From NCBI GenBank assembly GCA_018651745.1, contig JABIDL010000010.1, positions 70,596-134,595 on the forward strand: DNA of 64,000 nucleotides, given 5' to 3'. Positions within the stretch are counted from its first letter, which is position 1; the number at the start of each line of letters is the position of its first letter. This document shows, in pieces, positions 28,576-38,874 of the stretch. A program made the position numbers and the translations under genes. Below the pieces are notes generated by a model, which did no database searches, had not been told where the DNA came from, and saw nothing but the letters and a program-made list of their open reading frames with translations. This stretch comes from Candidatus Neomarinimicrobiota bacterium (GTDB lineage: Bacteria; Fidelibacterota; Marinisomatia; Marinisomatales; TCS55).

Positions 28576-29121
28576 TTACGCTTTAAATGGTTCAAAACTC
28601 ACAAAATCAGCATGGTGTACAATAATAGATTCTACCGTTCGTTTACCTAATTCGCCTTCTTTTGAATGAGTACCGATAATATGCTGAACATCTGCCGGTA
28701 AATCAAATCTCGCAGCAATGGCAACTCCGCTGAATGGGTGGCGGACTTTGCTACCGTAATCACTTGTAGATAGTTTACCGTCAATCATTTCGTATTCTAA
28801 CAATTTCCCCACGTCGATTAAAATGGCACCGGCAATGAGTATATCCATATTAATCTCAATTTCATCACCAAAATTTTCCTGCATACGTTTAGCAATATCA
28901 ACAGCCAGATGGACACAGGTTCGCTTATGATTCATAAAGGTTACGTTACAATCTTTTATTAAGAGTGAAAATGGAATTTCCATCAAGTCATCTGCTGACA
29001 ATACACTATTATCGATTGCCCATTCCCATGCTGCGGATACCTTTTCTTTTAATTCTTTATTCTTTATCCAATCTATTTCAGGCCAAATTTTTAATATGTT
29101 TTCTTTATTGCTCATAATCAT
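28576..29121 (-). CDS. HD-domain protein with altered metal site
   Basis: 181 aa, HD-hydrolase superfamily. HKRTCVHLAVDIA gives the first His. The HD doublet position reads ID (LIDVGKLLE), so one metal ligand is lost. HPFSG, IGTHSKEG and HHADF supply further family positions. It may be a phosphohydrolase with a changed site or a regulatory relic. The frame overlaps citF by 4 nt (ATGA type) and is 3 nt before the homoaconitase-like gene, so it is embedded in the citrate operon. A link to citrate lyase is only suggested by position. Confidence 0.75.
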   Translation of the reverse strand: MIMSNKENILKIWPEIDWIKNKELKEKVSAAWEWAIDNSVLSADDLMEIPFSLLIKDCNVTFMNHKRTCVHLAVDIAKRMQENFGDEIEINMDILIAGAILIDVGKLLEYEMIDGKLSTSDYGSKVRHPFSGVAIAARFDLPADVQHIIGTHSKEGELGKRTVESIIVHHADFVSFEPFKA

Positions 29122-30692
29122 TCCTTTACTTTAAAAATCGAATCTATAACCGTCCCGTCAACCCATTTAACAACGCTGATCACTTCATCTGTTAGTTCTG
29201 GTTTTTCAGGGGCACCACCAATAAGGTCATCTACTTCCGCTTTTATCTCCTCAATTTTTCTGATTGGTAAACCGCTGTTTTTTGTTGCCTTTATCAAATC
29301 TTTCCGTAACGGATTAATGGCTATGCCCCTTTCGGTAACAATAACATCAATCAATTCTCCAGGACCGACCAAAGTTGTGACTTCATCCACAATTATGGGA
29401 ATACGATCTCGAAAGGCCGGGATGGGTAATATAGTACATTTACTGAAAAGGCAATTTTGCCAACCACCAATTCCATGAAGCATTCGACCGTCCGAATGTG
29501 TCACTACATTGGCATTAAAATTTACATCCACTTCTGTAGCACCCAGCACTACTACATCCAGCATGGAAGCAAAATTTCCTTTTCCATGCCAATTATAACT
29601 GGTAAAAGGCGATGTATCCACATGGCCCGAATTTTCTCTCATTGAGTGAACGCCATCTAAATCAAATGTTTGACCATCCAGAATAAAATCAGTAAGCCCT
29701 TCTTCCAGCATTTCCACTAGATATTTGGTGGAACCACCGCGGATGAATCGGGCTTTGATGCCAGCATCTTTCATCATTTCTTTCAAATAGATGGCAAATG
29801 CCAACGCAGTGCCGCCGGCACCGGCTTGAAAGCTAAAACCGTCTTGAAGAATATCGGCAGCTTGAACAAATTTTGCTGTCAGTTCAGCAATATATAATCT
29901 ATCCGGAGAGCGGGTGAGTTTGGTTGTCCCTGACACAATTTTTTCCGGATCTCCTACCTTATCCATTACAACTACATAATCCACATTCTGCCCCTGGATC
30001 TGCCAAGGCACACATGGAAATGGCACCAAATTATCTGTCACAACTATGACTTTATCGGCATACAGAGTGTCCACCAGACCAAACCCCAATAATCCGCACG
30101 CGGATGAACCGCGATCTCCCGTGGCGTTCCCAAATTCATCAGCAGTCGGCGCGGCAATAATAGCAATGTCAATGTGAACTTCTCCATCTTGCACCGCCTG
30201 CCAGCGGCCGCCATGACTTCTTAAAACGCCTGTTCCGCGCATTCCTCCTTTTGATGCAAAATCACCCAGAGGTCCATTTAATGAGCCCTCAATCCAATCA
30301 ATGGTTCCGTTTTTAATATGGTCAATTACAGGTTTATGGCATGGAAAAGCAGCCGAGGGAAACCAGCGTAAACCTTTTACACCCATGTTTGCGGCAATAT
30401 CGAACACTTGATTCATAACTAAATCTCCATTACGAAAATGGTGATGATTCGAAATAGTCATACCGTCCTTTAATCCGCATTTTTTCAATGCTTTTTGCAA
30501 AGATCCGATTATTTTATTCCCATCCTTTGGATAGCCAGAGCAAGAGCGAATAGGCGGCGCTGCTTTTGGACCCGATGGTTTATGTTTATCAACACCCATA
30601 AATGGAGTTTGTTTAATTCCATTTATTTCAACAGGAACTAATCGGCTAACAGAATTTTGCACCATTTTTGGCTTTTTCATTTTTTCTTCCAA
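29118..30692 (-). CDS. citF: Citrate lyase alpha subunit
   Basis: Acyl-carrier transferase subunit of ATP-independent citrate lyase; it moves citrate onto the CitD prosthetic group. 524 aa, usual length. CoA-transferase-type folds show in ISNHHHFRNGD, GSLNGPLGDFASKGGMRGTGVLRSHGGRW, IAIIAAPTADEFGNATG, and FQAGAGGTALAFAIYLKE. VVLGATEVDVNFNANVVTHSDG follows. It overlaps the CitD-CitE gene by 16 nt; starting at the internal Met (MKKPKM) would remove most of this. No citC, citX or citG is in the window. Confidence 0.92.
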   Translation of the reverse strand: MEEKMKKPKMVQNSVSRLVPVEINGIKQTPFMGVDKHKPSGPKAAPPIRSCSGYPKDGNKIIGSLQKALKKCGLKDGMTISNHHHFRNGDLVMNQVFDIAANMGVKGLRWFPSAAFPCHKPVIDHIKNGTIDWIEGSLNGPLGDFASKGGMRGTGVLRSHGGRWQAVQDGEVHIDIAIIAAPTADEFGNATGDRGSSACGLLGFGLVDTLYADKVIVVTDNLVPFPCVPWQIQGQNVDYVVVMDKVGDPEKIVSGTTKLTRSPDRLYIAELTAKFVQAADILQDGFSFQAGAGGTALAFAIYLKEMMKDAGIKARFIRGGSTKYLVEMLEEGLTDFILDGQTFDLDGVHSMRENSGHVDTSPFTSYNWHGKGNFASMLDVVVLGATEVDVNFNANVVTHSDGRMLHGIGGWQNCLFSKCTILPIPAFRDRIPIIVDEVTTLVGPGELIDVIVTERGIAINPLRKDLIKATKNSGLPIRKIEEIKAEVDDLIGGAPEKPELTDEVISVVKWVDGTVIDSIFKVKE

Positions 30693-31885
30693 TCTTTTGA
30701 TAACAGCTCCGAAGCAATGGCCAAATCAATGGTCTGCTGTGCTTTTTGTACAACAGGAGCATCTATCATTTTACTCCCCAGTGAAACCACACCAAGTCCT
30801 TTTGCTTCGGCTTCATCAAACGCCAATATAATTTTTTTTGCTCTTTCAATTTCTGAATCAGTTGGTGAAAATTCTTCATGAATTGGCTGAATTTGTCTTG
30901 GATGAATACAGCCCTTACCATTAAAACCAAGAGCCTTGGCTTCTCTGGCCGAAATTCTTAATGCTTCCTCGTCACTGATATCAACTGATACAGTGTCAAT
31001 TGCCTGAAGACCTGCAGTGCGGGCAGCATTGATGATTGTGCTGCGTGCAAATAAAGATTCATTACCTTCATCCGTACGCACGATTCCAAGATCGGCAGTG
31101 TAATCTTCCAATCCAATCGTCAGTGCAACGTTATTTGGTGAAGCTTCGGCAATTTCCAATGCATGCATCACACCTTTTGCGCTTTCAATTATAGGCATAA
31201 GAAACACCGGTTCTTTCCGTCCGCATTTTTTACTGATATCCGAAATTTTTTCATCTACAGCTATAATCTGTTCCCTACTTTCCGCTTTTGGAATAAGCAC
31301 CAAATGAACATTGTGAGGGACAACAAACTCAAGGTCTATTAATCCCATCTCTCCCTGATTGATTCTCACCATGCGTTCAGCACCAAAAAAGTCTAATGTC
31401 CGCAGAGCATTCCGAACGATAAACCGAGTGGATTCTTTTTCTGACGATGCTACAGAATCTTCCAAATCCAAAATAATTCCATCCGGTTTGTGAATGCCGG
31501 CATTCAGCATAAGTTTGGGCTGATTTCCTGGAATATATAATCGACTACGACGAAAACGATCTCGATTTGATTTTCCTTTGCAATGAGGTTTCATTTCCGG
31601 TAAAGATTCTTCCGCGATGCCTGGATGAGCAGCTTTAATCACTGCTTCAATACGGGCGGCAATGACAAAAGGTAATGCGCCAAAATCTTCTAAGATGAAT
31701 TCACCGGAATTAATCCCTAAATCTTTACAAACCATCTTCGCCTGGTTAAGAATAGATTCTCTAAATAATATATCAACCTTGCTTGATAATAAAAAATCTA
31801 ATGGATTAGAACTTGGTGAATAGGTAATTTTTAAATCAGATTTGGGTTTGTCACCCTTTGTCCCGGCAAAATATTCTTTTTTCAT
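30677..31885 (-). CDS. Citrate lyase gamma-beta fusion (CitD-CitE)
   Basis: Residues ~1-95 resemble CitD, the acyl-carrier subunit: YFAGT, then KSDLKITYSPS where the carrier Ser is expected, and LEDFGALPFVIAARIEAVIKAAHPG. Residues ~110-402 are CitE/HpcH aldolase: RRSRLYIPGNQPKLM, GIILDLEDSV, RINQGEMGLIDLE, LMPIIESAKGV, GLEDYTADLG and GCIHPRQI. CitE cleaves citryl-carrier into acetyl-carrier and oxaloacetate. Fusing carrier and lyase in one chain (402 aa against ~300 for CitE alone) is unusual. First gene of the cluster. Confidence 0.87.
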   Translation of the reverse strand: MKKEYFAGTKGDKPKSDLKITYSPSSNPLDFLLSSKVDILFRESILNQAKMVCKDLGINSGEFILEDFGALPFVIAARIEAVIKAAHPGIAEESLPEMKPHCKGKSNRDRFRRSRLYIPGNQPKLMLNAGIHKPDGIILDLEDSVASSEKESTRFIVRNALRTLDFFGAERMVRINQGEMGLIDLEFVVPHNVHLVLIPKAESREQIIAVDEKISDISKKCGRKEPVFLMPIIESAKGVMHALEIAEASPNNVALTIGLEDYTADLGIVRTDEGNESLFARSTIINAARTAGLQAIDTVSVDISDEEALRISAREAKALGFNGKGCIHPRQIQPIHEEFSPTDSEIERAKKIILAFDEAEAKGLGVVSLGSKMIDAPVVQKAQQTIDLAIASELLSKDWKKK

Positions 31886-33440: not shown

Positions 33441-34403
33441 TTATTTTTTTAATGAGATAAGTTTTTTCTTAAACTCTCGCAACTCCCGCACGTTCCCAAT
33501 CTCAATTTCACCCGAATCCCATTTGAGTTTGAAATCTCTTTCAGAATCAGAGCCTCCCTGTTTTTTGTATAATAGATATAGATCAGCTGCTTCTCTGGGT
33601 TTACCTTTATGAAGGGTCGCAGCTACTTGATACGCAATATCTTCAAGTATATCATCTATTACGCGGTCTGGAAGTTTTTTCTCCAACAATCCTTTTTCAA
33701 TTTTAGAAAATCGCATCCCATGAATCACATAATCCTGATATGCCTCCCATGCAAAGGGTGCGACCTTTTTAACCGATTCGGCCATCGCGTCAGAAAAAAC
33801 ACGAATCTCAAACTGGGCGTGGCTATCGGATCGTAAACCGATAAAGTGTAATAAATTGTGTAAATCATTTTTCCAATACCATTCCGTATAGATATTTACA
33901 GGCAGTAACGATCGTGCCAATTCTCGTGCCACACCTGCTTCATTTAACTCTTGGTATAGGGCAAAACTTCTTTCTGAATTCTCTTTAAAGTATGCCAATA
34001 CCTTTTGCTTTAATTCAGGCGGGACTTCTCCGGATCGGCCTTGTTTATTCAACGCACTTTGGAATTGAATATTTTCCGGATCAGGATAATAAAATTCATC
34101 ACGAGCTTCGGAATAGCGTAGAGAATATTCATTAATATTTGCTGTACGATGACGTACCCATTGTCGGGCAACAAAAATTGGCATTTTACAATGAAATTTG
34201 AATTCCACCATTTCGAATGGTGTGGTATGCCGATGACGCATGAGATAGCGAATGAGTCCGCGATCTTGGGAAACTTTGCTTGTCCCTTGTCCATAGCTAA
34301 CCCGCGCTGCTTGCACAATGGCATTATCTCCACCCATGGAATCCACGAGCCGAACGAAACCTTTATCTAAACATTTGATGGCATCTTTTGGTATGTTTGT
34401 CAT
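33441..34403 (-). CDS. thyX: Flavin-dependent thymidylate synthase
   Basis: Makes dTMP from dUMP using methylene-tetrahydrofolate and FAD. 320 aa, a little long. The ThyX motif RHRTANINEYSLRYS is intact, preceded by RHRHTTPFEMVEFKF and QWVRHR. The second half (SARSLLPVNIYTEWYWKNDLHNLLHFIGLRSD-type stretch) supplies the Arg/His that bind dUMP. It follows the CysQ-like gene by 2 nt in the metH operon, linking folate one-carbon use in both enzymes. Confidence 0.96.
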   Translation of the reverse strand: MTNIPKDAIKCLDKGFVRLVDSMGGDNAIVQAARVSYGQGTSKVSQDRGLIRYLMRHRHTTPFEMVEFKFHCKMPIFVARQWVRHRTANINEYSLRYSEARDEFYYPDPENIQFQSALNKQGRSGEVPPELKQKVLAYFKENSERSFALYQELNEAGVARELARSLLPVNIYTEWYWKNDLHNLLHFIGLRSDSHAQFEIRVFSDAMAESVKKVAPFAWEAYQDYVIHGMRFSKIEKGLLEKKLPDRVIDDILEDIAYQVAATLHKGKPREAADLYLLYKKQGGSDSERDFKLKWDSGEIEIGNVRELREFKKKLISLKK

Positions 34404-34405
34404 TA

Positions 34406-35185
34406 TTAATATCCTGTTAAAATACTATACGTTTTGTCCACTGCAACAATTTCACCGGCAATTAAGCCCGGTTCAATAAGCGTCTTTTCTTGATTGAAAC
34501 TAACAAGATTCCCTTTTAGGTCAATCAACTTTCCACCGGCTTCATTGATAATGCAATTTCCTGCGCAAATGTCCCATTCGTTTTTCGGACGAAGAGATGC
34601 AAATATGTCTGCCTTCCCTGCTGCAGTCAGTCCCAATTTATAAGCGACAGAACCCACAGCCTTGAGTTTGCCAAATGTACCGTTATATGGTGCCCAGAGC
34701 CCTCGTCGTGTTTCAGATCGACTATTCAGAATAACCATTTCACTTACATTTTCCTTGGTGGCACACTGAATTGGATCATCGTTTAAAAATGATCCCTCAC
34801 CTTTGGATGCTGTAAACATTTCTTTTGTTACAGGATTATAGAGCACGCCCACAATCGGGAATCCATTATCCACAAGCGCCACACTTACCACAAAATTTGG
34901 AACGCCCTCAATAAATTCTTTCGTCCCATCCAATGGATCCACAACCCAAACCCGATCTTTTTCCAAACGATCAGGTGAATCTACCGTTTCTTCTGAAAGC
35001 CAACCATATTTCGGTCGAGCGTTCATCAACAATTCTTTTAAACATGCATCAGCCTCATGATCAGCAGTAGTTACGGGGTTATGAAATCCCTTTTCTTCAA
35101 TCTCATAATCGGACTTATAATATTTTAAAATAAGATTGCCAGCTTCAATGGCAGCATCTTTGGCAAGATTTAATTCAGAATTCAT
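34406..35185 (-). CDS. cysQ: 3'(2'),5'-bisphosphate nucleotidase CysQ-like (inositol monophosphatase family)
   Basis: Mg-dependent phosphatase, 259 aa. TADHEADACLKELLM, GWLSEETVDSPDRL, and WVVDPLDGTKEFIEGVPNFVVSVAL are the metal-site motifs; the DPLDGTKEFI form is typical of CysQ, which removes PAP made in sulfate assimilation. WDICAGNCIINEAGG completes the signature. It sits between metH and thyX, which fits sulfur/methionine metabolism under SAM control. Inositol phosphatase activity is an alternative. Confidence 0.88.
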   Translation of the reverse strand: MNSELNLAKDAAIEAGNLILKYYKSDYEIEEKGFHNPVTTADHEADACLKELLMNARPKYGWLSEETVDSPDRLEKDRVWVVDPLDGTKEFIEGVPNFVVSVALVDNGFPIVGVLYNPVTKEMFTASKGEGSFLNDDPIQCATKENVSEMVILNSRSETRRGLWAPYNGTFGKLKAVGSVAYKLGLTAAGKADIFASLRPKNEWDICAGNCIINEAGGKLIDLKGNLVSFNQEKTLIEPGLIAGEIVAVDKTYSILTGY

Positions 35186-38200: not shown

Positions 38201-38753
38201 GTGCTGCCTTACAATTCAGCGTATCAAAAACAGTTTCAACTAAAAATAAATCGACCCCACCATCCAATAATCCTTTAGCCTGATCGTAATATGCATTTTT
38301 TAATTCATCAAATGAAATATTTCGAAATCCCGGATCGTTCACATCAGGACTCATAGAAGCAGTGCGGTTGGTTGGACCCAATGCACCGGCAACATATCGC
38401 GGTTTATCTAAATATGTTTTTGCAACAGACTTAGCAATTTTGGCGGCTTCATAATTGATCTCATATGCCAGATTTTCCATTGAATAATCTGCTTGGGATA
38501 TAGCATTTGCGTTGAAGGTATTGGTTTCAACGATGTCTGCCCCCGCATCAAAATAGGCTTTATGGATTTCCCCCACAACATCGGGACGTGTGAGGCAAAG
38601 CAAATCGTTATTGCCTTTCAGATCCTTCGGGTGATTATTGAAACGATCTCCACGAAAATCTTCTTCTTTAAGGTTATATGACTGGACCATGGTTCCCATG
38701 GCACCATCAAAAACCATAATACGATTGTTGAGTATTTTTTTCATCTTTTTCAT
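35220..38753 (-). CDS. metH: Cobalamin-dependent methionine synthase
   Basis: Transfers methyl from methyl-tetrahydrofolate to homocysteine through cobalamin. About 1177 aa with four modules. The homocysteine domain has [18 protein letters not shown] and zinc Cys of [14 protein letters not shown]. The pterin-binding domain has [14 protein letters not shown] and [10 protein letters not shown]. The cobalamin module has the cap helices and [11 protein letters not shown], whose His ligates cobalt. The C-terminal reactivation domain carries [15 protein letters not shown]. An in-frame ATG at 38819 lies inside the riboswitch, so the start at 38753 (or 38744) is preferred. Heads the metH-cysQ-thyX run. 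Confidence 0.95.
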
Positions 38754-38756
38754 AAT

Positions 38757-38784
38757 AAAAAAACCCGTTGCTAAATCAGGGTTT
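38757..38784 (-). terminator. Riboswitch expression-platform terminator
   Basis: On the minus strand AAACCC and GGGTTT form a short stem around a 12-nt loop, followed by seven T, 3 nt before the metH ATG. The loop holds TTTAGC (38775-38770), complementary to GCTAAA (38796-38791) in the 3' strand of the aptamer. Pairing of those two would enclose AAACCC and block the terminator. Confidence 0.7.
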
Positions 38785-38786
38785 AA

Positions 38787-38838
38787 CCTTTTTAGCACCA
38801 TTCTTTCACGTCGCGGCAATAGGGCATAAATTACGACT
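38787..38838 (-). promoter_or_regulatory. SAM-II (or SAM-V) class riboswitch aptamer
   Basis: Minus strand: P1 GTCGT pairs with GCGAC. The loop contains AATTTATG and CTATTGCC, and the 3' strand is GTGAAAGAATGGTGCTAAAAAGG. These match the SAM-II pattern as recalled: AUUUA and UUGC in the loop, CGUGA after P1, and the invariant GCUAAAAAGG that contacts SAM. TGCC in the loop can form the pseudoknot with GGTG. It lies 33 nt before metH, an expected target. SAM-V shares the core and cannot be excluded. Confidence 0.85.
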
Positions 38839-38844
38839 ATGGTC

Positions 38845-38874
38845 AGTTTACGTCAATGTTATGAATGGTTTCAA
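38845..38874 (-). promoter_or_regulatory. Candidate metH promoter
   Basis: TTGAAA (38874-38869) and TAAACT (38850-38845) are separated by 18 nt, which would start the transcript just before the riboswitch aptamer. Inferred from spacing. Confidence 0.35.

Follow-up and report, generated by a model that had tools for sequence, protein, structure and literature searches.

The metH leader of a marine Neomarinimicrobiota bacterium is very probably a SAM-II riboswitch that attenuates metH transcription when SAM is high, as judged from its sequence and from those of its relatives. The leader is about 80 nt long and lies on the minus strand at 38757-38837 of the window (the whole stretch of 64,000 nucleotides that was analysed). 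Read from 38837, it is GTCGTAATTTATGCCCTATTGCCGCGACGTGAAAGAATGGTGCTAAAAAGGTTAAACCCTGATTTAGCAACGGGTTTTTTTATT, and the metH ATG follows at 38753. The sequence, its homology to the class, a conserved structure, covariation of the alternative helices and association with the gene are direct observations; SAM is the presumed ligand and OFF the presumed direction. A preliminary description of this DNA had named the elements of the switch, and all of them are present at their places on the minus strand (Table 1). The aptamer loop is AAUUUAUGCCCUAUUGCC, the aptamer element at 38796-38787 is GCUAAAAAGG, and UUUAGC in the terminator loop occupies 38775-38770.

Table 1. Features of the metH leader and of the genes that follow it
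Feature	Position	Strand	Evidence or remark
Promoter, -35 TTGAAA, 18-nt spacer, -10 TAAACT	38845-38874	-	scan match
SAM-II aptamer, P1 and H-type pseudoknot P2	38787-38837	-	RF00521, 26.7 bits
P1 5' strand GUCGU / P1 3' strand GCGAC	38837-38833 / 38814-38810	-	paired in 62/62
Pocket nucleotides UUU, AUUGC, GCUAAA	38830-38828, 38820-38816, 38796-38791	-	column conservation, 62 leaders
Switching strand UGCUAAA (predicted: P2 and ligand contact with SAM, antiterminator 5' strand without)	38791-38797	-	complementary to 38769-38775, covariation, fold
UUUAGCA in terminator loop, antiterminator 3' strand	38769-38775	-	columns 41-86 paired in 49/62
Intrinsic terminator, AAACCC (38784-38779) / GGGUUU (38766-38761), seven-U tract (38763-38757)	38757-38784	-	
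metH, cobalamin-dependent methionine synthase, 1177 aa	35220-38753	-	TIGR02082 1740 bits, NF007024 2021 bits, both over cut-off
CysQ-like phosphatase, inositol monophosphatase superfamily	34406-35185	-	TIGR01331 161 bits, below cut-off 229
thyX, FAD-dependent thymidylate synthase	33441-34403	-	TIGR02170 211 bits, over cut-off 88

The class assignment proposed earlier was borne out by Rfam, by a held-out model and by homologues in much of the phylum. The RF00521 (SAM_alpha) model matched the window at 38771-38847 over its full length; within the genome of 1.86 Mb it has no second match (genome-wide E value 4.5e-4), and the same model gave zero matches in 14 control genomes. The score of 26.7 bits is below the gathering cut-off of 36 bits, which is a curation threshold rather than a structural trait, and a default Rfam scan of the whole window at gathering cut-offs therefore reported nothing. 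Thus, the check with the Rfam SAM-II model was positive by E value but below the gathering score. We built a lineage covariance model on 61 leaders, none of them from the genus of the window. Its best match in the window was precisely 38757-38837 (score 84.4 bits, E value 9.3e-17), and the next one had an E value of 1. SAM-V (RF01826) did not match the leader even up to E 10, and RF01726 (SAM-II long loops) matched neither the leader up to E 10 nor any other place in the genome; both identities were rejected for the metH leader.

The aptamer is conserved both in its helices and in its pocket. Assignment of the pocket draws in part on general knowledge of SAM-II structure. Its correspondences, namely UUU as third strand, UUGC and GCUAAA, were taken from PMC6061858. 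In 62 aligned leaders the columns for UUU, AUUGC and GCUAAA are invariant, the A of AUUGC nearly so. The fifth pair of P1 varies among UG, UA, GC, AU and CG, and P2 is paired in 87-90% of leaders, with changes on both sides. Covariation in the related genomes was seen in P1, P2, the terminator and the antiterminator alike. For P1, P2 and the terminator together, 90.1% of cells are paired as against 83.2 after shuffling, and 77 both-side changes were counted as against 32 (0/500 shuffles reached either value); the covariation of these helices exceeded all 500 shuffles and all slid versions. An RNA that shares the SAM-II fold but responds to a different ligand, or a SAM-V RNA, would fit a score below the RF00521 cut-off, and SAM-V shares the pocket (PMC6061858). 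We consider this very unlikely, as the positions contacting the ligand are conserved, the gene is a methionine gene, and the SAM-V and RF01726 models gave no match up to E 10.

The leader is widespread in the phylum. Among 40 genomes from the family, 36 had an RF00521 match (14 over cut-off), and among 245 Neomarinimicrobiota genomes 105 did (53 over cut-off), at the same metH site; the held-out lineage model matched 109 of the 245. Sixteen of the 116 leader matches precede other genes, which leaves 100. MetH homology was found downstream in 97/97 metH-type leaders with usable downstream sequence, counting the window's own; it begins some 95-150 nt downstream of where the match starts, and in a few cases the best segment lies further in but is collinear. 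Predicted SAM-dependent control of metH can be assigned to much of a mostly uncultured and little-studied marine phylum, and the Rfam cut-off passes over roughly half of what seem to be genuine SAM-II members. A search of the accessible literature found no paper linking Marinimicrobia with SAM-II. The earlier view of SAM-II as mainly proteobacterial is not supported as it stood: Bacteroides had previously been shown to have the class (PMC1273637), which is common here in another phylum.

Other SAM-II leaders were seen in these genomes. A second kind occurs in L072, L074, L077, L103, L104, L120, L122, L099 and L127, in which a SAM_alpha aptamer with a terminator is followed by an RF01726 aptamer (below cut-off) with a possible ribosome-site hairpin. 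These leaders precede small non-methionine genes of unknown function, and their targets look unusual; tandem SAM-II as such is known (PMC9481103). In L077, full and partial copies of SAM-II leaders recur every ~0.8-2 kb between genes over the whole sequence, like a cassette array, and some of the genes between them resemble, by eye, toxin-antitoxin modules (PIN, AbiE-like). A further SAM-II long-loop aptamer, at L125:2085-6580, stands at the head of a gene run that encodes a MoxR-type AAA ATPase, two proteins lacking any Pfam match and a divergent SAM synthetase. This run had no PADLOC match, and it may represent a system that turns on when SAM is depleted. Furthermore, L072:9402-16024 and L123:128-6750 share 6.6 kb at 99.3% identity, although the genomes are placed in different families, which reflects either recent transfer or a mis-binned contig.

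The terminator/antiterminator logic put forward in the preliminary description is supported by covariation, permutation and folding. A hairpin followed by a U-tract was found in nearly all relatives, and the terminator stem covaries. The hairpin of the metH leader, with its loop of 12 nt, was missed by a simple terminator scan that accepts loops of up to 8 nt. The terminator of the window is among the weakest of the set, with a stem of 6 bp including three G-C pairs and -5.3 as against a median of -11.2 kcal/mol. Such a weak stem and the score below cut-off in this genome would agree with an unregulated terminator behind a decayed aptamer. We regard decay as extremely unlikely in view of the 84-bit held-out match, the intact pocket and the conservation of the competing helix across the phylum.

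The competing helix would be formed by the aptamer strand GGUGCUAAA, which can base-pair with the loop and the 3' strand of the terminator (consensus UUUAGCAcc); in the window this antiterminator has 7 bp, with mismatches beyond. Columns 41-86, the pair just before GCUAAA, are UA in 24, UG in 10, AU in 7, CG in 7 and GC in 1 of the 62 leaders, and unpaired in 13. The covariation score of the antiterminator was 0.173 as against 0.107 in shuffled alignments (0/500), and slid versions gave at most 0.103; the pairs changed on both sides number three, which does not exceed the shuffles. Since the pair-column test scores a shared consensus as paired, we added a permutation test, also within families. 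In this alignment-free test, the helix score was 14.64 with each leader's own loop, 12.97 (sd 0.21) with permuted loops and 13.46 (sd 0.16) with loops permuted within families, neither permutation reaching the observed value (0/5000 each), and base-shuffled loops gave 8.6. These tests call for some caution, because those bases of the loop that lie close to the terminator 3' strand take part in two helices and the constraints therefore overlap. A few relatives (L056, L062 and L105) have poor antiterminator complementarity.

Folding gave a compatible picture. The predicted default fold of the window leader is P1 with the antiterminator at -13.8 kcal/mol (U-tract left out) as against -8.0 for P1 with the terminator, both values excluding pseudoknot and ligand contributions. 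In the relatives the two folds are close in energy, as expected of a switch, and the antiterminator is the lower one in 39/59. The antiterminator segment is complete before the terminator 3' strand emerges. Covariation in both alternative folds makes this compact natural switch of about 80 nt well suited to studying how a ligand pocket and a terminator compete directly.

Termination is ordinary for SAM-II, as the majority of its members are transcriptional (PMC6061858, PMC2258182, PMC1273637); the same papers contradict the earlier statement that SAM-II usually controls translation. In 84 leaders, a T/A/A-rich -10 and a T-rich -35 signal lie at equal distance from P1. The promoter of the window sits at this place, and the transcript should therefore begin at P1, at ~38838; SAM-II transcripts starting at P1 were noted before (PMC1273637). 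At the other end, the metH ATG (38753-38751) lies 3 nt past the U-tract and has no ordinary Shine-Dalgarno sequence. The GGG of the terminator 3' strand is ~10 nt upstream of the ATG, so that the hairpin could also block initiation, and S. meliloti metA uses a distant Shine-Dalgarno sequence inside its SAM-II riboswitch (PMC9373788). These features would suit a SAM-II aptamer with mainly translational control, in which the ribosome-binding region is masked by SAM or by the hairpin, whose role in transcription is minor. This is unlikely, because a U-tract after the hairpin, present in nearly every relative, and a covarying terminator and antiterminator are needed for attenuation and not for masking of a Shine-Dalgarno sequence. 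A second, translational lock at the metH start codon, in addition to attenuation, is possible but speculative.

Attenuation of metH would proceed as follows. Transcription would start at P1. When SAM is abundant, it would bind the H-type pseudoknot of the emerging leader and hold GCUAAA in P2 and the ligand triplex. With the terminator loop thus deprived of its partner, the AAACCC/GGGUUU hairpin would form, and RNA polymerase would halt in the U-tract while the metH start codon is still untranscribed. Without SAM, UGCUAAA would pair with UUUAGCA once the latter has emerged; as this pairing precedes the terminator 3' strand, the hairpin would be pre-empted and metH transcribed, together with any co-transcribed genes downstream. 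The kinetics of the switch are predicted ones.

Compared with known systems, the leader is ordinary in class and modestly different in its platform. Alpha-proteobacterial SAM-II (RF00521; S. meliloti metZ, metA) likewise has P1 and a pseudoknot, a UUU/UUGC/GCUAAA pocket, a promoter just before P1 and a terminator behind the aptamer. The reported proteobacterial targets are metY, hom, metA, metX, metC and metW (PMC4239095), whereas the target here is metH, and the P2 extension is 2-3 bp here as against ~5. In the rhizobial loci compared, a small set, no UUUAGC follows the aptamer; a GGCCGG-like P2 extension overlaps the terminator complement and appears to be the switching sequence. The difference is modest: in the metH leader, the strand predicted to contact SAM also acts as the antiterminator. 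SAM-V and the tandem SAM-II/SAM-V of Pelagibacter, also from marine bacteria, have a related pseudoknot and pocket. SAM-II of the Pelagibacter tandem acts by termination (PMC9481103); unlike the tandem, the metH leader is a single aptamer without a SAM-V match. RF01726 belongs to the same aptamer class; it has no match in the window genome and occurs in this phylum in tandem leaders of other genes. Thus, what stands out is the phylum, the metH target and the role of the ligand strand in antitermination; other SAM-II platforms may share this role, and the comparison set is small. We tentatively propose, as a possibility that we do not favour, a lineage-specific platform in which GGUGCUAAA, captured by the terminator loop, replaces the long proteobacterial P2 extension, the terminator 3' strand may add a translational lock before the ATG, and co-transcription of metH-cysQ-thyX would couple dTMP synthesis to SAM in certain members.

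The identities given earlier to metH and thyX were confirmed by scores over the NCBIfam cut-offs, and the middle gene is closest to CysQ but scores below its cut-off. The three genes are co-directional, with gaps of 34 nt (metH/cysQ-like) and 2 nt (cysQ-like/thyX), and no terminator was found between metH and the cysQ-like gene; co-transcription in the window is therefore plausible. In several families of relatives, cysQ-like and thyX genes lie near metH, frequently interspersed with methyltransferase-like or other genes; in other relatives they are absent from its vicinity, so this proximity does not span the range of the riboswitch. The claim that thyX is under SAM control is accordingly not supported as it was written, and such control was rejected as a conserved trait; SAM control of dTMP synthesis via thyX is a possible candidate in this genome and not a general one. 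Elsewhere in the window, at 29118-31885, citrate lyase genes were found that include a fusion of the acyl-carrier CitD with CitE, next to citF, and the run also holds, by eye, aconitase-like and isocitrate dehydrogenase-like ORFs.
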